Shown: in pieces, positions 1,552 through 11,825 of the stretch
How positions within the stretch are numbered: the stretch's first letter is position 1
Layout of the letters: every line of letters begins with the position of its first letter
Source: Gandjariella thermophila
GTDB lineage: Bacteria > Actinomycetota > Actinomycetes > Mycobacteriales > Pseudonocardiaceae
Assembly (NCBI RefSeq): GCF_005405885.1
Contig: NZ_BJFL01000002.1
Coordinates: forward strand, 1-64,000
DNA length: 64,000 nucleotides
Direction of reading: 5' to 3'
Translations under genes and position numbers: made by a program
Notes under the pieces: model-generated
The model's input: only the letters and a program-made list of their open reading frames with translations
What the model was told of the DNA's origin: nothing
The model's database searches: none

Positions 1552-2385
1552 CTACGGGCGCTGTCGGTGAGTGACGCGGCACGGCTTCCACACCGCGATC
1601 AGCTTGTCGTCGTGCACCTTGGCTCTGGGCAGCAGCGCGCCGGAGGGGTCGTTGCGGCTTTCCCACTCTTGGAGTTCTTGTAGTTGCTCGGCGAGTTGGT
1701 CGTCGGTCATCTCGGCGATCCGTTCCCAGGGGATTCCCAGGTGGTCGACTGGTCGTTGAGCACCATCGGTAGCGAGGATGCACCACTCTACGGTGTCAAT
1801 CGGGAAGCTCTGGACGATGGCGTGTTCGGCTGCGGAGGGATCGGCCTCGGCAATCCAGTATCCACCGGGTGTGTTCCGCGCCGCTAGTTGTTCTTCTTGG
1901 AGGCTACGGAGCAATGCGCGGTGGGTGTTGTCGTAGCCGCTTCCCGTGCGTAGTCGGCTCCGGTACTTGTCGTGGTATTCGGGCGCTACTGCGGCTAGTC
2001 GGGTATCCGTGATGCGGTGTGGTTCGTCGTGGTACGTGGTTTTGACGAGCGCAGTGCTATCGCCTAGCAACAGAAGGTCGATGTTCTCCGAAGACTTGCG
2101 GAGGATCAGCACGGTAGATGACGGAGAATGGCCGGGTTTGAGTTGTAGTTTAGAAGCTACCGCGTTGATTGATCGGCCGAGGATTACGCACAGTGACTCC
2201 TGGTCGGCGGGAAGCCTTTGGGAGAGGTCGGCTATCAGCTCGTCAACGAAACGCTCAGCGTTGATTACCGCAGGGGTGAAACTTGACGCACCGTCCAGCA
2301 CGATCAATCCGTTGGTGACGGCGGCCCAGCGGTCTTGTCCTCGTCCTTCATGGGCCGGTAGGGATGCTGTGTGGATGGTCATCAT
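1552..2385 (-). CDS. PP2C-family protein phosphatase-like protein
   Basis: The 277-residue protein shows the PPM/PP2C landmarks in order: an N-terminal metal-binding Asp-Gly (IVLDGASSF, about residue 31), a central LLLLGDSTALV strand pair, ILATDGAQRPVD near residue 206, and a C-terminal metal motif HDDKLIAVW where the family usually has Asp-Asn/Asp. These enzymes remove phosphate from Ser/Thr with two metal ions. No kinase lies on the element, so its target may be a host Ser/Thr kinase substrate. Its start overlaps by 4 bp the stop of the upstream HTH gene, so the two are translationally coupled. Base composition is lower in GC than the core AICE genes, suggesting it is cargo. Confidence 0.72.
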   Translation of the reverse strand: MMTIHTASLPAHEGRGQDRWAAVTNGLIVLDGASSFTPAVINAERFVDELIADLSQRLPADQESLCVILGRSINAVASKLQLKPGHSPSSTVLILRKSSENIDLLLLGDSTALVKTTYHDEPHRITDTRLAAVAPEYHDKYRSRLRTGSGYDNTHRALLRSLQEEQLAARNTPGGYWIAEADPSAAEHAIVQSFPIDTVEWCILATDGAQRPVDHLGIPWERIAEMTDDQLAEQLQELQEWESRNDPSGALLPRAKVHDDKLIAVWKPCRVTHRQRP

Positions 2386-3206
2386 GTCCAGCCTCGGGGC
2401 GGTACGAGGACGTTCGTCTCAATGGGAGTCAGACCGTCGAACTTGGTTGTGACGGCCATGCTGAACTCGGCATCGCCGTAGTTGGCGAACAGGTCTGGCA
2501 GTGAAGTCATAAGGTAGTGTGCTGCTCCAACAGAGCCGAGGGCGTGTAGTCCTGCGATGTGCACGACCACTTGGTTTCCGTATTGGTGCCGAGCTATGTA
2601 CGCATGGTCGGCTCGTGCAGGCTCGCGTTCGTCCATGGGGGACAGGAACCGCTCGCCGGTCGCCCGGTCCTCGATGTACCAGTGCACGTTGTCACCGAGG
2701 GTCATGCCCAGCAGCGGGTCTTGGGACATGAGCTTGTGACCGATGTGGGCGGAGGCCGGACCGCAGACGACGACGGCGTCGCCGGCGGGCTCCCACTCTT
2801 CGCGGGGGTCGATGATGAACCGGTTGGTCAGGAACACCAGCTTGCCCAGCTCGTCGATGAGGTGGGTGCCGGTGGCGTCGTCCTCGCCGGCGATGACGGG
2901 GTCTTGACGGCCAAGGATGATGCGTCCGGGTAGTGCCACTGTGAGCGGTCCGACACCGAAGAAGGCCCGGTATGCAGGGGGCGCGCTGGACCGGATCTGA
3001 GTGATGCGGCCCTTGGTGAGGCCGAAGGCCTTGGCGACTTCGGCATAGCTGCCTCCGAGGACGTCGCGTGCCTCTTCGATCGCTGCTCGGCGGATGCGAG
3101 CCAGTTCGGTGGAGCGTTGCTGGTAGACGGCGAGCAGCTCCGTGGCGCGTCGCCCCCGGCTGATGGGGTCGGGGTCGCGTCGTACTGCCTCGAAGTCCTC
3201 GTCCAC
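2382..3206 (-). CDS. Sigma-like HTH DNA-binding protein with C-terminal sensor-like domain
   Basis: The 274-residue protein has an N-terminal helical stretch (STELARIRRAAIEEARDVLG) leading into a sigma-70 region-4-like HTH (SYAEVAKAFGLTKGRITQIR, about residues 53–72). The C-terminal 190 residues form a separate alpha/beta domain with DAVVVCGPASAHIGHKLMSQ and VVVHIAGLHALGSVGAAHYL, a pattern I know from uncharacterised Streptomyces HTH proteins but cannot tie to a ligand. It is divergent from the SCO3933-like gene across a 112-bp promoter region and overlaps the PP2C gene downstream. A role as a signal-responsive regulator of this two-gene unit is inference. Confidence 0.6.
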   Translation of the reverse strand: MDEDFEAVRRDPDPISRGRRATELLAVYQQRSTELARIRRAAIEEARDVLGGSYAEVAKAFGLTKGRITQIRSSAPPAYRAFFGVGPLTVALPGRIILGRQDPVIAGEDDATGTHLIDELGKLVFLTNRFIIDPREEWEPAGDAVVVCGPASAHIGHKLMSQDPLLGMTLGDNVHWYIEDRATGERFLSPMDEREPARADHAYIARHQYGNQVVVHIAGLHALGSVGAAHYLMTSLPDLFANYGDAEFSMAVTTKFDGLTPIETNVLVPPRGWT

Positions 3207-3255
3207 GGGCGGCGAGTTTAGACCCCTTGACGCTCGCAGACACGCGGGCTACCCT

Positions 3256-3297
3256 GGTTTAGGCCCCTCAACCAGCAGTACGGCAAGATGGTTTAGG
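3256..3297. promoter_or_regulatory. Direct GGTTTAGG repeats in the divergent AICE promoter region
   Basis: GGTTTAGG occurs at 3256–3263 and 3290–3297, 34 bp apart start to start (about three helical turns), each followed by a C-rich or G-rich run. They lie between the minus-strand HTH gene (start 3206) and the plus-strand SCO3933-like gene (start 3319). The position suits an operator for an element-encoded regulator. No binding protein can be named. Confidence 0.4.
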
Positions 3298-3318
3298 GGG
3301 ATAAACGAAGGAGGCGAG

Positions 3319-3648
3319 ATGCGGGACATCCCGGTCAACCTGGGCGGCTTCAAGCTGCGGATCACGGAGGAGCCGTCGATGAAGATGCGGGAGCGGGACG
3401 GGCAGAAGGAGCCGGTCACCGTGGACGGTGTGAGGCAGTTCACCGTGTCGCTGTTCGCCAAGCGTCCCGGGCAGAAGGGTGAGGAGATCCGGGTGACGCT
3501 GCCGGCGGACCCGGGGGAGGGGTTCGAGGAGGGGGACTTGGTCGAGCTGATCGACGCGACGGTGTCGCCGTACTCGTTCACCAACGGCAGGGGCGAGACG
3601 GTGTCGGGGATGGCGTTCAAGGCGGCCGGTCTGAAGCCGCTGGGCTGA
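3319..3648 (+). CDS. SCO3933-family AICE regulatory protein
   Basis: The 109-residue protein (MRDIPVNLGGFKLRI...) matches the small single-domain family known from SLP1/pSAM2-like elements as SCO3933-type regulatory proteins. It is beta-rich with the conserved FTVSLFAKRPGQKGEEIRVT core and a GLKPL end. The ATG at 3319 is chosen because AAGGAGGCGAG lies just upstream and family members begin with this sequence. An in-frame upstream extension would overlap the divergent gene. It opens the plus-strand AICE operon. Its biochemical role is not established. Regulation of transfer or replication genes is inferred from family name and position. Confidence 0.72.
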   Translation: MRDIPVNLGGFKLRITEEPSMKMRERDGQKEPVTVDGVRQFTVSLFAKRPGQKGEEIRVTLPADPGEGFEEGDLVELIDATVSPYSFTNGRGETVSGMAFKAAGLKPLG

Positions 3649-4196: not shown

Positions 4197-4745
4197 ATGG
4201 GCTCACCGCAGGGGACGGTGTATCTGCTGCATTTTGATCGGCCGTATGAGCACGCGCGGCATTACACCGGGTGGACGACCGATCTGGACTCCCGGCTGGC
4301 CGAGCACGCGACCGGGCGGGGTGCCCGGCTGTTAGAGGTGGTCAGCGCGGCCGGGATCGGGTGGGAGCTGGCGCGCACGTGGCCGGGCACGCGGGCGCGG
4401 GAGCGGCAACTGAAACGGCAGGGCGGCGCATCGCGGCATTGCCCGATGTGCGGCGTGAAACCACGAAACGGAGGGTTATCGGTGCAAGTACAGGCGGTCA
4501 ACCGGCAGGCACAACGCAAGTACGCGGAGTTCATCGGCGCGCTGGACTTCGTGCGCGAGGTGCTGACTGAGGCCGGGAAGCTGGTGAAGAAGCACAACGG
4601 CAAGCCGGGGGACGCGGCGTGGTCGATCCCGGATCGGGACGAGTTGGAGGCCGCGCACAAGAAGGCGGTGGACGATTTGCAGGCGCTGCGGTCCAGCGCG
4701 AAGAAGTACGAGAAGGAACTCGTGTCGCGGACGTGGAGGGTCTAG
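4197..4745 (+). CDS. GIY-YIG-like nuclease domain fused to a helical C-terminal part
   Basis: Residues 1–90 carry a GIY-YIG-superfamily pattern: TVYLLHF at 7–13 and HYTGWTTDL at 22–30 replace GIY and YIG, followed by the RLAEH helix. The domain ends with a CPMC pair (Cys82, Cys85). Such nucleases cut DNA with a Tyr/Arg/Glu site. The remaining 90 residues (from VQVQAVNRQAQRKYAEF) are helical with a coiled-coil-like KKAVDDLQALRSSAKKYEKEL stretch and no link to GIY-YIG folds. A good internal start (GTG 4482 behind GGAGGG) suggests that two genes have become fused or that two products are made. The gene starts 6 bp after the preceding stop. Confidence 0.6.
   Translation: MGSPQGTVYLLHFDRPYEHARHYTGWTTDLDSRLAEHATGRGARLLEVVSAAGIGWELARTWPGTRARERQLKRQGGASRHCPMCGVKPRNGGLSVQVQAVNRQAQRKYAEFIGALDFVREVLTEAGKLVKKHNGKPGDAAWSIPDRDELEAAHKKAVDDLQALRSSAKKYEKELVSRTWRV
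4482..4745 (+). CDS. Possible nested or independent small helical protein (internal start)
   Basis: A GTG at 4482 is preceded by GGAGGG with 5–6 nt spacing, in frame with the GIY-YIG-like gene, and would give an 87-residue protein beginning (M)QVQAVNRQAQRKYAEF. The product is charged and helical. The site is exactly at the boundary between the zinc-pair end of the nuclease domain and the unrelated C-terminal part. It may be the true separate gene, with the upstream nuclease lacking a stop here. Choosing between the models needs expression data. Confidence 0.4.
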   Translation: MQVQAVNRQAQRKYAEFIGALDFVREVLTEAGKLVKKHNGKPGDAAWSIPDRDELEAAHKKAVDDLQALRSSAKKYEKELVSRTWRV

Positions 4746-5040: not shown

Positions 5041-6405
5041 ATGCGTGAGCAGGCGAAGTCCAAGCGCCGCACTGGGATCGAGGTGCGGGCCGGGTTGTGG
5101 CTGGCCCGGCATCCGCACTTTGTGGCGGGTCCGGCGGCGGTCGCGGCGAGTGTGGCCGAACTCGGCCCGGTGGCCACCGGCAGCATCGTCGGCGGGCTGA
5201 CGGCCGGCATGTTGGCCTGGTACCGGGCGCACCCGGACTCCTTCGACACCCTGGTCGCGCCCCGGCTGCGGGCGTTTCGCAGGCGGTGGTGCTCCCGCTA
5301 CACCGGCCACCTGTGGCGGGACGTGGCGCTGTCCTGCGACCTGGCCCCGGTGCACCGCCGCACGGGGGAGCACCGGTTTCCTCGGGTGCTGCGGGTGCGC
5401 TCGTACTCGCCGACGATCGACTCGGTGCTGGTGCGGATGGTGCCGGGCCAGTCGGTGCGCGACTGGCAGGACCGCGCCGAGGCCATGGCCGATGCCCTGC
5501 GGGTGGAGCGGGTGGCGATTGAGCGGGTCCGGCCGCAGATTCTCGGCCTGGTGGTGCAACGTGCCGAGCCGTTCACCGAGGTCATCGACGCACCCGAGAT
5601 CCCCGCCGATGTGGACGCGGTGGATGTGGGTCGGTTGTATCTCGGGGAGGACGAGTACGGCCACGACTGGTGCGAACGGCTGGCCGGTCGGCACTGGTTC
5701 GTCGTCTCGGCCACCGGTGGCGGGAAGAACAGCATCGGCTGGTCGGCGGCGCGCAGTCTGGTTCCGCTGATCGGCGAGGGCTCCTGCCGGTTGTGGATGC
5801 TGGACCCGAAGCGGGTGGAGCTGCAGGCCGGGGCGGGCATGGCCCATCGGTATGCGGCCGAGCCGGACGAGATGCACGCGGTGGTTGAGGAGTACGTGGA
5901 AGACCTGCGCGAGACGCAGCGCCGGTTGTCGGCGGCGGGGCTGCGCAAGGTCACCACACCCTCCCGGGAGTTCCCGCTCAACGTGCTGATGATGGACGAG
6001 CTGGGGATGCTGATGGCCTATGGCGATTCCCGGCTCGCGCGGGACTACCGCTCCTGGCTGGCTGAGATCGGTTCCCAGGGGCGGGCCACGCTGCACTCGA
6101 TGATGGGTTTCGTTCAGGAACCCACCAAGGACGTGGTGCCGATCCGGGACCTGTTCACCACCCGGGTGTGTCTGCGGGTCACGGCGGCGTCGCATGTGGA
6201 CATGGCGCTGGGGGATGGGGCCAGGTTGCGCGGCGCCCTGGCCGATGAGATCCCCGACGACCCGGCCACCGCCGGTATTGGCTACGTGGTCCGCCAGCGT
6301 TCCCGCGTCCCGATGCGCGTGCGCGCGGCCTATGTGGACGACCGGGAGATCACCGAGATGGTCGAGGCCGTCCAGCGCGGCCGGGACCTGCGCGTCGTCG
6401 CCTAG
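5041..6405 (+). CDS. tra: FtsK/SpoIIIE-like conjugative DNA translocase (Tra)
   Basis: The 454-residue protein begins with a basic stretch and hydrophobic segments (about residues 26–60, VAGPAAVAASVAELGPVATG), then an FtsK-like ATPase domain. Walker A is ATGGGKNS with Lys229, and Walker B is NVLMMDEL with Asp319-Glu320. AICE Tra proteins form hexameric pores that move double-stranded element DNA between mycelia, unlike relaxase-based conjugation. The length matches pSAM2-type TraSA minus some of its N-terminus. GGGAGGTGTGAG precedes the ATG. The second Gly and the Asn in the P loop differ from the commoner GATGAGKGS but keep the essential Gly-Lys-x-Ser. Confidence 0.88.
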   Translation: MREQAKSKRRTGIEVRAGLWLARHPHFVAGPAAVAASVAELGPVATGSIVGGLTAGMLAWYRAHPDSFDTLVAPRLRAFRRRWCSRYTGHLWRDVALSCDLAPVHRRTGEHRFPRVLRVRSYSPTIDSVLVRMVPGQSVRDWQDRAEAMADALRVERVAIERVRPQILGLVVQRAEPFTEVIDAPEIPADVDAVDVGRLYLGEDEYGHDWCERLAGRHWFVVSATGGGKNSIGWSAARSLVPLIGEGSCRLWMLDPKRVELQAGAGMAHRYAAEPDEMHAVVEEYVEDLRETQRRLSAAGLRKVTTPSREFPLNVLMMDELGMLMAYGDSRLARDYRSWLAEIGSQGRATLHSMMGFVQEPTKDVVPIRDLFTTRVCLRVTAASHVDMALGDGARLRGALADEIPDDPATAGIGYVVRQRSRVPMRVRAAYVDDREITEMVEAVQRGRDLRVVA

Positions 6406-6488: not shown

Positions 6489-6818
6489 ATGCCCCGAAGT
6501 GAACTCGGCAGCAGCTACCCGGGATACCGGGCGCTGATGCTGGCCCTGTTCGGCCGCTCTGGTCGGCCACCCGCGTGGCGTGCCCGCGCGGCCTGCCGGG
6601 ATGAGGACCCGGCGGTTTTCGATGACCCGGACCGCACCGACGACGCCCTGGCCGTGTGCGCCGGCTGCCCCGTGGTCGAGGAATGCCGCACGGATCAACT
6701 CGCCTGGGAGCGGCAGTCCGGGGTCCGCCGCTTCCACCCCTCCGGCGTCGTTGGCGGCCTGACCGGCACCGAACGCCACCGCATCCACTACCCGCCCAAG
6801 AAGAAGGAGGTGGCCTGA
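6489..6818 (+). CDS. WhiB-like iron-sulfur transcription factor
   Basis: The 109-residue protein has the four cluster cysteines Cys36, Cys57, Cys60 and Cys66 (CAGCPVVEEC) and the turn SGVVGGLTGTER that follows them in all Wbl proteins. A short basic end (PPKKKEVA) replaces the usual AT-hook-like tail. Wbl proteins hold a 4Fe-4S cluster and regulate by binding sigma factors such as SigA. Being on the element, it may control transfer or host development genes. GGGAGGTCTTTGTC precedes the ATG, and its stop overlaps the next start (TGATG). Confidence 0.88.
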   Translation: MPRSELGSSYPGYRALMLALFGRSGRPPAWRARAACRDEDPAVFDDPDRTDDALAVCAGCPVVEECRTDQLAWERQSGVRRFHPSGVVGGLTGTERHRIHYPPKKKEVA

Positions 6819-7572: not shown

Positions 7573-8331
7573 GTGTCCGCACGCAACAAGGCCGCCGGGT
7601 TCGGCGGGTGGCTGGCCGGCGCGATCCCGGTGCTGGTGGCCACGGTGCTGGGTGGGATCGGCGCGGCGGCCGGCTTCACCCACACCCATGATTGGGCCGA
7701 GCACCACGGCCAGCACGGCTGGCTGGCGTGGGCGGACGCGGTGGTCATCGAGGGCATCGCCACCGTGGCCGGCTTCGAGATCCACCGCGACCACCGCGCC
7801 GGCCGGCACCCGTCGTGGCGCTCGTTCCCGGTCGTGGTCCTGGTGGTCGGCTTCGTCGTCCAGATGGCCGCCCAGGTCGCCGAAGCCGAACCCAGCCTGC
7901 CCGGCTGGCTCTTGGCCGCGATGCCCGCGCTCGGGTTCCTCACCGTGGTCAAGCTGCTCATCCGCCGGATCCCCGCCGACACGCCGGCACCGTCCACCCC
8001 GGACACCGACCACACCGACAAAGCCACCAACCGGGAAGCCCCGGCCCGGCCGGCACCTTCGGCCGCTACGGCGGCGGGCGCGTCGGCTCGGCCGGTACCT
8101 CGGACGCGGCTGCGGCTGCCGACGGAGATGCGCGAGGCGATCCACGCCACGGCCGACCAAGCCGCCCGCGACGGCCGGGAACTGACCGTCGACGACGTCC
8201 GCCAAGCCGTCCGCGTCCCGGCCGACCTGGCGGAACAGATCGTGCGAGAGATCAACCACGCCCGCAACGGGCACACCCTCACCGGCTCAACAACCCACAC
8301 TCGACAACTCTCGGAAGGACAAACCCCGTGA
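7573..8331 (+). CDS. DUF2637/Spd-like membrane protein with C-terminal DNA-binding-like tail
   Basis: The 252-residue protein has about four hydrophobic segments in its first 135 residues (AGAIPVLVATVLGGIGAAAG, AVVIEGIATVAGF, FPVVVLVVGFVVQMAAQ, LLAAMPALGFLTVVKLL). A Pro/Thr-rich linker (about 140–180) and a charged helical tail (LPTEMREAIHATADQAARDG...) follow. This is the DUF2637 architecture found in actinomycete plasmids and AICEs at the place of spread (spd) genes, which support intramycelial plasmid movement with Tra. The GTG start sits behind GGGAGGAATACC. Its stop overlaps the next start by 4 bp. Confidence 0.65.
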   Translation: MSARNKAAGFGGWLAGAIPVLVATVLGGIGAAAGFTHTHDWAEHHGQHGWLAWADAVVIEGIATVAGFEIHRDHRAGRHPSWRSFPVVVLVVGFVVQMAAQVAEAEPSLPGWLLAAMPALGFLTVVKLLIRRIPADTPAPSTPDTDHTDKATNREAPARPAPSAATAAGASARPVPRTRLRLPTEMREAIHATADQAARDGRELTVDDVRQAVRVPADLAEQIVREINHARNGHTLTGSTTHTRQLSEGQTP

Positions 8332-8725: not shown

Positions 8726-10078
8726 GTGGTCGTGCTGACTCTGGAAGACCGCATCACCCGCCGGCTCCGCGCCAGCGACTACACCGGCTGGCGGGCCAAG
8801 GTGGAGGCCACCGGCGGCTGCCTACACCCGGTGCACCTCACCGGCCGCTACGAGCTGCAAGACCTCACCGGCGCGGCACTCACTGGCCGGTCCGGGCACA
8901 TCTTCGCCCCGTGCGGCAACCGCCGCGCCAGCGTGTGCCCGGCCTGCTCGGACCGCTACGCCGCCGACGCCTTCCACCTCGTCCGCGCCGGCCTGGCCGG
9001 CGGCACCAAGGGCGTGCCCGGCTCGGTGGCGGAGCGGCCGCGGTTCTTCGTCACCCTCACCGCCCCCTCGTTCGGCCCGGTGCACAACCGGCGCGTCTCC
9101 CGGCGAGGTCGGGTCCAGCCGTGTGCCTGTGGCGGCTACCACCACGACGCGGACCCGCGCATCGGCACCCCGCTGGACCCGGCCGGCTACGACTACACCG
9201 CGGCGGTGCTGTGGCAGGCCCACGCCGGCGAACTGTGGCACCGGTTCACCATCGCCCTGCGCCGCCAGCTCGCCCACGCCGCCGGGCTGTCCGAACGGGC
9301 CTTCCGCGAGTCCGCCCGGCTGTCTTACGCCAAGGTCGCCGAATACCAACGCCGCGGGCTGATCCACTTCCACGCGGCCATCCGCATCGACGGCCCCACC
9401 GGACCCGACACCCCGGCCCCCGCGTGGGTCACCGCCGACCTCCTCGAGCACGCCATCCGCGCCGCCGCCCGCACGGTCACCCTCACCGCCGCCCGCCCGG
9501 ACGGCGCCCCGGTCGAGCTGGTCTGGGGCGAACAGGTCGACATCCGCCGCATCCGCCCCGACCAGGCGCACCAGGTCGAGGACAAGCGCGGGGAGATCAG
9601 CGACCAACGGCTGGCCGGCTACGTCGCCAAGTACGCCACCAAGGGCACCGGCAAGACCGAAGCCGCCGACCGGCCGATCCGCTCGCAACGCGACATCGAC
9701 CACCTGGCCGTCGCCGACCACCACCGGCGAATGATCCAAACCTGCTGGGACCTCGGCGCGCTGCCGCAATACCAGCGGCTGAACCTGCGCAAGTGGGCCC
9801 ACATGCTCGGCTTCCGGGGCCACTTCCTGACCAAGTCCAAGCACTACTCGACCACCTTCAAGGCCATCCGCGAAGAACGCCGCACCTACCGGCTGCGGCA
9901 AACCCTGGACGAACTCGAAACCCAGGGCGTGGACCTCGACACCGTGGTGGTCGTCAACCACTGGCAATTCACCGGCATCGGCTACGCCGACCAGGCCGAA
10001 CGCGAACTAGCTGAAGCCATCGGCGAACGCAAACGCCAACAACGCCAACGGAAGTACGAACAGGAGGAAGCAGCATGA
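8726..10078 (+). CDS. repSA: RepSA-type rolling-circle replication initiator
   Basis: The 450-residue protein has an N-terminal zinc-knuckle-like region (CGNRRASVCPACSDRYAAD), motif I FFVTLTAPS, the HUH metal motif IHFHAAIR (His214, His216), and a catalytic tyrosine motif YVAKYATKG (Tyr299/Tyr303). These are the hallmarks of Rep from pSAM2-type elements, which nick the double-strand origin and prime rolling-circle replication of the excised circle. A strong GGAAGGAGGT is 2 nt before the GTG at 8726. GTG 8732 is better spaced and may be the true start. Its stop overlaps the xis start (ATGA). Confidence 0.9.
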   Translation: MVVLTLEDRITRRLRASDYTGWRAKVEATGGCLHPVHLTGRYELQDLTGAALTGRSGHIFAPCGNRRASVCPACSDRYAADAFHLVRAGLAGGTKGVPGSVAERPRFFVTLTAPSFGPVHNRRVSRRGRVQPCACGGYHHDADPRIGTPLDPAGYDYTAAVLWQAHAGELWHRFTIALRRQLAHAAGLSERAFRESARLSYAKVAEYQRRGLIHFHAAIRIDGPTGPDTPAPAWVTADLLEHAIRAAARTVTLTAARPDGAPVELVWGEQVDIRRIRPDQAHQVEDKRGEISDQRLAGYVAKYATKGTGKTEAADRPIRSQRDIDHLAVADHHRRMIQTCWDLGALPQYQRLNLRKWAHMLGFRGHFLTKSKHYSTTFKAIREERRTYRLRQTLDELETQGVDLDTVVVVNHWQFTGIGYADQAERELAEAIGERKRQQRQRKYEQEEAA

Positions 10079-10425
10079 CGAGCCACCACGGCAGCTCGAA
10101 TGCGTACGTGCAGCCGTACGTGCCGCAGGGCGGAGACAGCGTGGGGGAGGTGCTTCCGTTCCGCGCTCTCGCCGGCTCGCCCGGGAGGAATGGCCGGACT
10201 CAACAGGGTCGTGGCGTCGGGCCGAGGTCGAACATCTCAACGGAGCGCCTGGTCTACAAGGTGGACGAGGTGGCCCGGATGCTGGGTCTGTCGCGGGGGA
10301 TGGCCTACCAGTACGTGCGGGAGGGCGTGATTCCTGCCGAACGCATCGGCCGGCGCTGGGTGATACCGCGCCGCCGGTTCCACGCCTGGCTCGATGGGCT
10401 CTCGGCGGAGGGAGGTGGTTTCTGA
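10075..10425 (+). CDS. xis: Excisionase, MerR/HTH_17 type (Xis)
   Basis: The 116-residue protein has a disordered N-terminal half and a C-terminal winged HTH (LVYKVDEVARMLGLSRGMAY then QYVREGVIPAERIGRRWVIPRRRFHAWLD, about residues 59–109) of the type used by AICE excisionases. Xis bends DNA at the att arms so that integrase recombines attL with attR. It overlaps repSA by 4 bp and the integrase start by 1 base, the compact rep-xis-int order of pSAM2. The unusually long N-terminal tail may mean that the functional protein starts internally. Confidence 0.8.
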   Translation: MTSHHGSSNAYVQPYVPQGGDSVGEVLPFRALAGSPGRNGRTQQGRGVGPRSNISTERLVYKVDEVARMLGLSRGMAYQYVREGVIPAERIGRRWVIPRRRFHAWLDGLSAEGGGF

Positions 10426-11678
10426 TGGGCCACATCGTCCAGACCCCGGCCGGAAGCTGGCGGGCGAACTGGCGCGAACCTTCCGGCCGCCAACGGTCGA
10501 AGACGTTCAAGACCAAGCGGGAAGCGAGAGCCTTTCTCGCCCAGGTCGAGACAGCGAAGACCCGGGGTGAGTACGTCAGCCCCCACGGTGGGCGGACGCT
10601 GTTCCGGGATCACGCTGACCGGTGGATGAAGGCGCGGCGCACCGAGATCACCACGGCCGCGCGGGATGCCTCGGTGATGCGAACCCACGTGTTGCCGCAG
10701 TGGGGTGACTGGCCACTGGCCAAGATCGATGAACTGTCGGTGCAGACATGGATCACCGAGCTGGCCGGTCGGCGGTCGCAACCGGTCGTTGCGAAGTGCC
10801 TCCAGCTCACCTCGGCGGTGATGCGCTCGGCGGTCCGCAACAAGCTGATCGGCACCAACCCCTGCGAGGGCGTCACACTGCCGAAGCTGCGGAAGCGGGA
10901 CACCGACGAGCGGATCATCAGTCGGGCGGACCTGCGGGCGCGGTTACTCCCCGCTGTGCCCGAGCGGTACCGCGCTGTGGTAGCTGCGGCGGCCGGCGCG
11001 GGCCTGCGTTGGGGCGAGGTCGTCGGCCTGTGCACCGACGCGGTGGACCTCGACGCGGGCTACCTGCGCGTGGTCCGGACCGTGGTTGAGGTCGCGGGCA
11101 ACACGTCGATTAAGCCCTACCCGAAGTCCAGCGCGGGCCGGCGCACGGTCCCGCTGCCGTCCTGGGTGGTTGAGGTCATCTACGAGCACCTGACGCGGTT
11201 CCCGGTCACGGACGGCGCGCTGCTGTTCACGAACCTGGCCGGGGGAGCATTGCGGCGGACCCTCTTCCGCTCCCGGGTCTGGCGGCCGGCGCTCGTGCGA
11301 GCTGGTCTGCTCGGCCGGGTGACGGCGACCGAGGCCGACACCTGGCGAGGGGAGTGGACCGCCGAGGACGGCACCGCGGCGGCCAAGGACTTCACCAGCG
11401 AGACGGAGGCCATCAAGGTCGTTGCCCGCGAGGCGGCCGGCGGGCTGCGCTTCCATGATCTCCGCCACTCCTACGCCACCTGGCTGGTTGACGACGGTGT
11501 GCCGGTGAACATGGTCCAGCGGGTGCTCGGGCACGAACGCTCGTCCACCACGCTCGACCTCTACACCCGGCGCACCGATGACGGGGGCCGCATCCTGCGG
11601 GCACTCGGGGACGCTGACGAGGACGGCCCGGACGATGATCCCGATGAGTCAGCGGGCGGAGCGCTGACTTCTCGCTGA
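10425..11678 (+). CDS. int: Tyrosine site-specific integrase
   Basis: The 417-residue protein has an N-terminal AP2-like arm-binding region (GSWRANWREPSGRQRSKTFK), a SAM-like core-binding domain (about 62–150), and a catalytic domain with Arg195 (GLRWGEVVGL), His344-x-x-Arg347 (HDLRH), His370 (LGHERS) and nucleophile Tyr380 (LDLYTRR). The insertion around residues 300–335 between catalytic strands is common in actinomycete integrases. It recombines the 45-bp sites, the right copy lying 72 bp downstream within tRNA-Val. The ATG shares a base with the xis stop. Confidence 0.95.
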   Translation: MGHIVQTPAGSWRANWREPSGRQRSKTFKTKREARAFLAQVETAKTRGEYVSPHGGRTLFRDHADRWMKARRTEITTAARDASVMRTHVLPQWGDWPLAKIDELSVQTWITELAGRRSQPVVAKCLQLTSAVMRSAVRNKLIGTNPCEGVTLPKLRKRDTDERIISRADLRARLLPAVPERYRAVVAAAAGAGLRWGEVVGLCTDAVDLDAGYLRVVRTVVEVAGNTSIKPYPKSSAGRRTVPLPSWVVEVIYEHLTRFPVTDGALLFTNLAGGALRRTLFRSRVWRPALVRAGLLGRVTATEADTWRGEWTAEDGTAAAKDFTSETEAIKVVAREAAGGLRFHDLRHSYATWLVDDGVPVNMVQRVLGHERSSTTLDLYTRRTDDGGRILRALGDADEDGPDDDPDESAGGALTSR

Positions 11679-11698: not shown

Positions 11699-11752
11699 CA
11701 CGAAGGCCAGGTCGCCGGCTCCTGATCAAGCCTGTGACCTGGCCCTTTCGTG
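11699..11752. terminator. Bidirectional hairpin between int and tRNA-Val
   Basis: CACGAAGGCCAGGTC at 11699–11713 pairs with GACCTGGCCCTTTCGTG at 11736–11752 with a 2-nt bulge and a 22-nt loop. It lies between the convergent int gene and the tRNA-Val 3' end and would terminate transcription from both sides. Because it is inside the element, it replaces the tRNA operon's own terminator now at 821–852. Confidence 0.6.
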
Positions 11753-11795
11753 GTGGGCGATACTGGGATTGAACCAGTGACCTCTACCGTGTCAA
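11751..11795. repeat. attR-like 45-bp direct repeat
   Basis: This is the right copy of the 45-bp repeat shared with 870–914. It is contained in the intact tRNA-Val(GAC) gene, which the element restores on integration. Confidence 0.93.
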
Positions 11796-11825
11796 GGTAG
11801 CGCTCTCCCACTGAGCTAATCGCCC
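11751..11825 (-). tRNA. tRNA-Val(GAC)
   Basis: The minus strand folds as a complete tRNA: acceptor GGGCGAT/ATCGCCC, anticodon stem CTACC/GGTAG with loop TTGACAC giving anticodon GAC, T arm GGTTCAATCC, and an encoded CCA at 11751–11753. It is the last of three minus-strand tRNA genes and the integration target of the AICE. Confidence 0.95.

Follow-up and report, generated by a model that had tools for sequence, protein, structure and literature searches.

The analysed window, a stretch of 64,000 nucleotides of Gandjariella thermophila DNA, contains a 10.9-kb AICE, a small mobile conjugative element of soil bacteria, inserted in a tRNA-Val gene. The features of the element are collected in Table 1. 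Two minus-strand genes, encoding a 274-residue HTH protein and a PP2C-type phosphatase and overlapping by 4 bp, were recovered by an ORF check as in the preliminary description of this DNA, and they are indeed oriented away from the plus-strand Pra-like, FtsK, DUF2637, RepSA, Xis and Int genes. The lower GC content ascribed to the pair is clear for the PP2C gene (60.1%, where the element averages 68.7% and the window 72.2%) and only mild for the HTH gene, whose 65.0% lies close to the 65.8% of a neighbouring small ORF.

Table 1. Genes, domains and sites of the element and of its boundaries (positions in the window)
Feature	Position	Strand	Remarks
att identity segment	870..914		one end of the element; perfect 45-bp repeat of the tRNA-Val 3' part
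PP2C-type protein phosphatase, 277 aa	1552..2385	-	ATG start; presumed metal-ligand Asp 18, 31, 109, 207, 259, 260
HTH regulator, 274 aa	2382..3206	-	GTG start; probably leaderless; 4-bp overlap with the PP2C gene
C-terminal alpha/beta domain of the HTH regulator, residues 76-262	2421..2981	-	predicted fold; GH67/GH84/GH20/GH115 N-domain and BcsB-like
sigma-70 region 4-like helix-turn-helix, about residues 34-76	2979..3107	-	
TAAACT, -10-like	3215..3220	-	8 nt before the GTG start of the HTH gene
operator-like site 3, GTCAAGGGGTCTAAAC	3216..3231	-	shares bases with the -10-like TAAACT
operator-like site 2, GTTGAGGGGCCTAAAC	3257..3272	-	
operator-like site 1, GTTTAGGGGGATAAAC	3291..3306	+	immediately precedes the RBS of the divergent Pra-like gene
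opening gene of the divergent operon, a relative of the SCO3933 (Pra) family	3319..3648	+	full-length match below the curated cut-off
FtsK/SpoIIIE-type transfer protein	5041..6405	+	
DUF2637 protein	7573..8331	+	
RepSA replication initiator	8726..10078	+	
excisionase (Xis)	10075..10425	+	
tyrosine integrase	10425..11678	+	
tRNA-Val(gac)	11751..11825	-	integration site, other element end

Further genes were noticed in and around the element. The transfer region includes a WhiB-family gene (6489-6815, plus strand; Pfam E 5.5e-14), and a WhiB gene also stands beside the pair in several plasmid relatives. The product of an ORF of the transfer operon (4197-4745, plus strand) gives a weak GIY-YIG nuclease match, below the cut-off (E 0.0076). 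Beyond the att copy, on the short stretch towards the contig start, lies a small minus-strand ORF (305-574), which we take to resemble the first protein of IS3-type transposases.

The HTH gene is present as a single copy in its own genome. In profile searches its product matched sigma region 4-like and other short HTHs, and it also matched phrog_686, an "HTH DNA binding protein" (9.8e-6). The protein is not a sigma factor, as region 2 was found neither in the protein itself at E up to 1 nor in any of the 79 family members at E up to 0.01 (79 of 81 sequences, L044 and L073 being left out). It is not a GntR protein of the KorSA family, as PF00392 is absent at E up to 1 and none of the matches of the genome search falls at 2382-3206. 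A phage origin was set aside, there being no match in phage records or viral contigs; the model of the HTH protein likewise found nothing at E up to 0.001 in the viral structure library.

The structure model of the HTH protein is of high confidence (pLDDT 96.3, pTM 0.91). Its C-terminal domain, of a kind that the preliminary description could not assign, has no convincing sequence match in Pfam or PDB; structure prediction and search indicate, by predicted fold only, a GH67/BcsB-like domain. In the VIA comparison, which barely covered the HTH part of the model and leaves families outside the result lists possible, residues 76-262 align with the N-domain of the GH67 alpha-glucuronidase 1mqq (Z 12.9, rmsd 2.4, 125 aligned) and with the BcsB domain 9b8v (Z 11.4, rmsd 2.7, 124 aligned), and the N-domains of GH84, GH115 and GH20 enzymes match likewise. 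Foldseek gave a best E of only 2.9e-3, at a probability of 1.00. Since the top matches bring together several enzyme families that share one kind of domain, the predicted relation to GH67 N-domains and BcsB is credible; the fold says nothing on function. What is shared with these domains is the predicted fold alone, whereas here the domain is joined C-terminally to an HTH as part of a DNA-binding regulator, and no sequence similarity was found. By analogy, a sugar or another ligand could be sensed by it.

Within the HTH family, T64 and T69 are occupied by Ser or Thr in 79/79 rows, and no conserved phosphosite stands out. Position 64 is also a usual helix cap in sigma-4-like HTHs; position 69 may be Asp or Gly in plasmid relatives. 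The plasmid relatives of the HTH protein carry the annotation "sigma-70 family RNA polymerase sigma factor"; their PP2C partners are in several cases called "integrase" or "UTRA domain-containing protein". The present analysis corrects these misleading labels.

The phosphatase of the window reaches 24.7 bits with the Pfam PP2C_2 profile (cut-off 24), and the profile is matched by 51 of 69 members of the family at E up to 0.01 (69 of 71 sequences, without L044 and L075). Its model (pLDDT 95.3) has a PP2C fold, with a best Foldseek E of 1.1e-9; the best VIA match is PstP, 1txo (Z 20.3, rmsd 3.9, 214 aligned). A lack of metal ligands, named in the preliminary description as one of two refuting results, was not observed: all six Asp of Table 1, which on the basis of PP2C structures we take to be the metal-ligand positions, are invariant in 69/69 sequences. 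An inactive pseudophosphatase is thus unlikely, and judged by its residues the enzyme looks catalytically active. Invariants specific to the family include N171, G175, W177, D246, R254 and K256. The fold and the metal-ligand Asp are shared with PP2Cs of the PstP/PphA type, from which the element enzyme differs in sequence (about 14% identity), in having no adjacent kinase gene and in being paired, on mobile elements, with a DNA-binding protein. A SpoIIE/RsbU partner switch was rejected, as the PP2C matches listed at E up to 1 include no SpoIIE. On the host chromosome there is a PP2C relative 32% identical to the element enzyme (G000:C3:355916-356680), for which no HTH partner was noticed; the adjoining ORF is presumably DNA-ligase-like, and genes similar to this relative are present in many related genomes (also at L142 7488-8693).

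The intergenic region that separates the HTH gene from the divergent Pra-like gene holds three copies of GTYWAGGGGNNTAAAC, with the consensus GTYWAGGGG(N)NNTAAAC. At up to 1 mismatch, these three intergenic sites are the sole matches in the 6.1-Mb genome, from which the reversed control pattern is absent; a host regulon with such sites was therefore rejected. When up to 3 mismatches are allowed, a site occurs in 72 of 81 upstream regions (80 relatives and the window); for control windows taken from the same loci the figure is 40 of 3335. At up to 2 mismatches and a length of 16 or 17, three sites are found in 55 of the 80 loci, four in 1, two in 16, one in 5 and none in 3. The spacing in relatives is mostly 41-46 bp, with 42-44 bp, close to four DNA turns, being commonest, and in 45/55 loci site 1 is reversed and faces the divergent gene. 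Elsewhere in the loci only 11 far sites were counted in 1.43 Mb, three of which form a second triplet in L069. This second complete triplet (about 2575-2674) has no HTH gene behind it and is perhaps the remnant of another element. Of 15 distant relatives, only 2 carry the strict or generalised pattern, although in others repeated G/C-run motifs can be seen by eye.

Exact matches of the site were also counted in 100 genomes. There are 16, of which 11 adjoin an HTH gene and 5 do not; the latter (three in G053, one in G015 and one in G017) lie inside a different palindrome, built around GTTTAG(C/G)GGGCTAAAC. This palindrome (L160, L161, L162, L163) resembles the operator-like site and is interspersed in places, and no HTH or AICE gene was found near it in the three genomes.

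These distributions bear on a possible host-directed role, with the HTH protein as a transcription factor for host genes and the pair as adaptive cargo. A precedent exists in SCO3932, the GntR regulator of an AICE remnant, which also binds host promoters according to the available text of PMC8584621. In the present genome, by contrast, sites with at most 1 mismatch do not occur beyond the element, and the conserved site architecture is confined to the promoter of the HTH gene itself, so that this explanation appears very improbable.

The promoter scan of the intergenic region revealed no sigma-70 consensus pair. The -10-like TAAACT is found at the corresponding place in 76 of the 80 loci, and the first in-frame start follows 6-8 nt further on in 71 of them. 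Such a short distance points to a leaderless transcript, and judged by its sequence the HTH gene is probably transcribed in this form.

The survey of the neighbourhood of HTH genes, in which 99 HTH relatives were found by scanning genome contigs and 80 were kept, indicates that the pair co-occurs widely, contrary to the other refuting result named in the preliminary description. A PP2C-profile match on the same strand starts within 44 nt of the HTH stop in 70/80 relatives. Among plasmids, an HTH relative is present in 23 records and a PP2C relative in 31; by comparison of positions the PP2C adjoins the HTH gene in 21 of the 23, the exceptions being NZ_LN868939 and NZ_CP109431, and in eight plasmid regions that were read the pair was seen in seven. 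Of 100 related genomes, 26 give an HTH match (E up to 1e-3), and in 16 of these the genes are near-full-length; with the window's own gene excluded, 18 near-full-length HTH genes remain, 12 with an adjacent PP2C and 6 without. At E up to 1e-10 the HTH protein was found in only 7 of 396 genomes drawn from the phylum, which means that the family is clustered and not universal.

The ten loci without a PP2C match are L073, where the contig ends in the HTH gene, and L076, L104, L105, L112, L114 and L116-L119. With L073 dropped, the remaining nine are also without detectable FtsK, Rep or Int genes upstream; in the resulting table, loci with AICE genes divide 50/0 into those with and without PP2C, against 20/9 for the other loci (Fisher p 5e-5), detection being by single-sequence searches with the window's proteins, which miss distant ones. 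The joint absence of PP2C and of these genes ties the pair to the elements. Six of the nine loci (L112, L114, L116-L119) belong to Nocardia; one or two sites are left there, and these HTH genes may be domesticated single regulators. The suggestion that the pair is AICE cargo does not agree with these observations: in many elements the pair occupies a constant place beside divergent backbone genes, which argues for a regulatory module. A search of PADLOC-DB (2023 library) gave no match at E up to 1, an absence that is compatible with defence.

The same adjacency has to be considered for the substrate of the phosphatase. The PP2C might target host proteins in signalling, growth or surface exclusion, and be linked to the HTH gene only through shared expression in the quiescent state. 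The host kinases speak for this reading: a PF00069 scan of the complete genome returned 24 Pkinase matches, none within the element, in agreement with the earlier remark that the element has no kinase, and a simple HRD-motif regex, which odd kinases would escape, found none in the 80 loci. The chromosomal PP2C relative, being without an HTH partner, indicates moreover that the family can work alone. The adjacency in the elements is, however, near-strict, in 50/50 loci with AICE genes (contig-end locus dropped), and distances of HTH and PP2C correlate better with each other (rho 0.69) than with those of FtsK (0.45 and 0.43, respectively; 40 loci, phylogeny uncorrected). Correlated divergence is expected for partners, but equally for neighbours. 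A host-protein target is considered improbable, and interference with host phospho-signalling, as had been suggested, is not called for by anything found here.

The divergent gene connects the pair with known AICE control. The first divergent gene of the window matches the SCO3933 family at E 7.4e-10 with 38.9 bits, under the NCBI cut-off of 80; in 13 of the 80 loci a first gene of this type is read away from the HTH gene at a distance of no more than 700 bp, and tblastn with the window's gene found no plasmid relative. Among 36 scanned divergent first genes, hand-picked from 63 (the window gene plus 35 of 62 that an RBS rule had identified), 12 match the SCO3933/Pra family. A second type of first gene, with L066 as the query, is 45% identical to a "plasmid replication, integration and excision activator" of Streptomyces sp. 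X335 and also matches a "transcriptional regulator" on an 11-kb record of Micromonospora rosaria. The site-bearing promoter region is thus common to the HTH gene and a Pra-type gene, with the Pra score of the window under the cut-off. A search for KorSA/GntR proteins in elements with the HTH/PP2C pair, using one seed only, found none.

According to the available text of PMC8584621 and PMC3218068, SCO3933 is a Pra homologue, KorSA represses pra, and Pra activates rep, int and xis. As the divergent gene is Pra-like, the HTH/PP2C module stands where KorSA stands. With KorSA/Pra of pSAM2 and SCO3932/SCO3933 of Streptomyces coelicolor it shares a repressor gene beside a Pra activator gene and sites in the promoter region; the repressor gene is divergent from pra in SCO3932/SCO3933 and next to it in pSAM2 (same sources, available parts). 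KorSA is of the GntR type, with no phosphatase partner mentioned in the accessible portions of these two papers, whereas the window regulator joins a sigma-4-like HTH to a GH67/BcsB-like domain and has both a PP2C partner and a set of three sites.

Taken from comparative sequence evidence, the role of the pair as a conserved regulatory switch of the element is well supported: the pair and the three sites recur in many related elements, as would be expected of an on/off switch. The HTH protein is in all likelihood the repressor of the element. It would bind the three copies of GTYWAGGGG(N)NNTAAAC as putative operators, repress its own promoter, where site 3 lies on the -10-like box, and through site 1 also repress the promoter of the divergent Pra-like activator, so that the transfer, replication and excision genes would remain silent. 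That the PP2C acts on the HTH protein or on its regulation has a slightly better than even chance. We infer the substrate and the direction of action of the PP2C as follows: the co-transcribed enzyme would strip from the HTH protein the phosphate added by host Ser/Thr kinases, leaving the repressor still able to bind; when kinase activity exceeds that of the phosphatase, the repressor would release the DNA, Pra would be made, and the element would excise and transfer. The C-terminal domain might, more tentatively, sense a ligand or carry an oligomer interface. An autoregulated repressor of the Pra-like activator, with the PP2C setting its phosphorylation against the host kinases, is our preferred reading, and as a whole we judge it evenly balanced. 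The phosphatase-controlled switch considered in the preliminary description fits the conserved pair and the three conserved operator-like sites at both promoters, with none elsewhere in the host genome.

The same switch may operate with the opposite sign. The phosphorylated HTH protein would then bind DNA, and a signal-activated PP2C would strip the phosphate and free the element, acting as an anti-repressor. ICEBs1 is the relevant comparison, in which an element repressor also works with a controlling enzyme; ImmA is a metalloprotease that inactivates its partner ImmR through cleavage (available text of PMC6540685), whereas the second gene of the window encodes a PP2C, the sign of whose action is only proposed. 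The position of the enzyme gene directly after a repressor-type gene in 70/80 loci is compatible with such a role. PP2C enzymes are, however, usually constitutive, and a DNA-binding domain that gains negative charge more often binds less well. The anti-repressor is accordingly regarded as rather unlikely, and a PP2C that guards the repressor is slightly favoured over it.

The control of AICEs has been described mainly through KorSA and Pra of pSAM2 (PMC3218068, PMC8584621, available parts), and the regulators listed in the accessible text of PMC3218068 are Pra, KorSA-like GntR, XRE, NsdA-like and WhiB proteins. The word "phosphatase" does not occur in the available text of PMC3218068, PMC3364876, PMC9513070 and PMC8584621, nor do "HTH" and "plasmid" in that of the bacterial PP2C paper PMC12088040. 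A literature search, with subscription journals mostly outside its range, returned no paper on a PP2C controlling a conjugative element, and nothing useful on the C-terminal fold.

The HTH/PP2C pair with its fixed operators represents a second, apparently common solution to AICE control and a new variant of the kor/pra switch, and the module pinpoints the exact DNA for testing. If the PP2C acts on the repressor, transfer of the element would be tied to Ser/Thr kinase signalling of the host. It is possible, though on the doubtful side, that a large family of actinobacterial conjugative elements and plasmids chooses between silence and transfer by the reversible Ser/Thr phosphorylation of a repressor of a new type, in which a GH67/BcsB-like sensor domain is attached to the sigma-4-like HTH; phosphorylated by host kinases and reset by the element's own PP2C, this repressor would let the element read the PknB-type signalling of the host.
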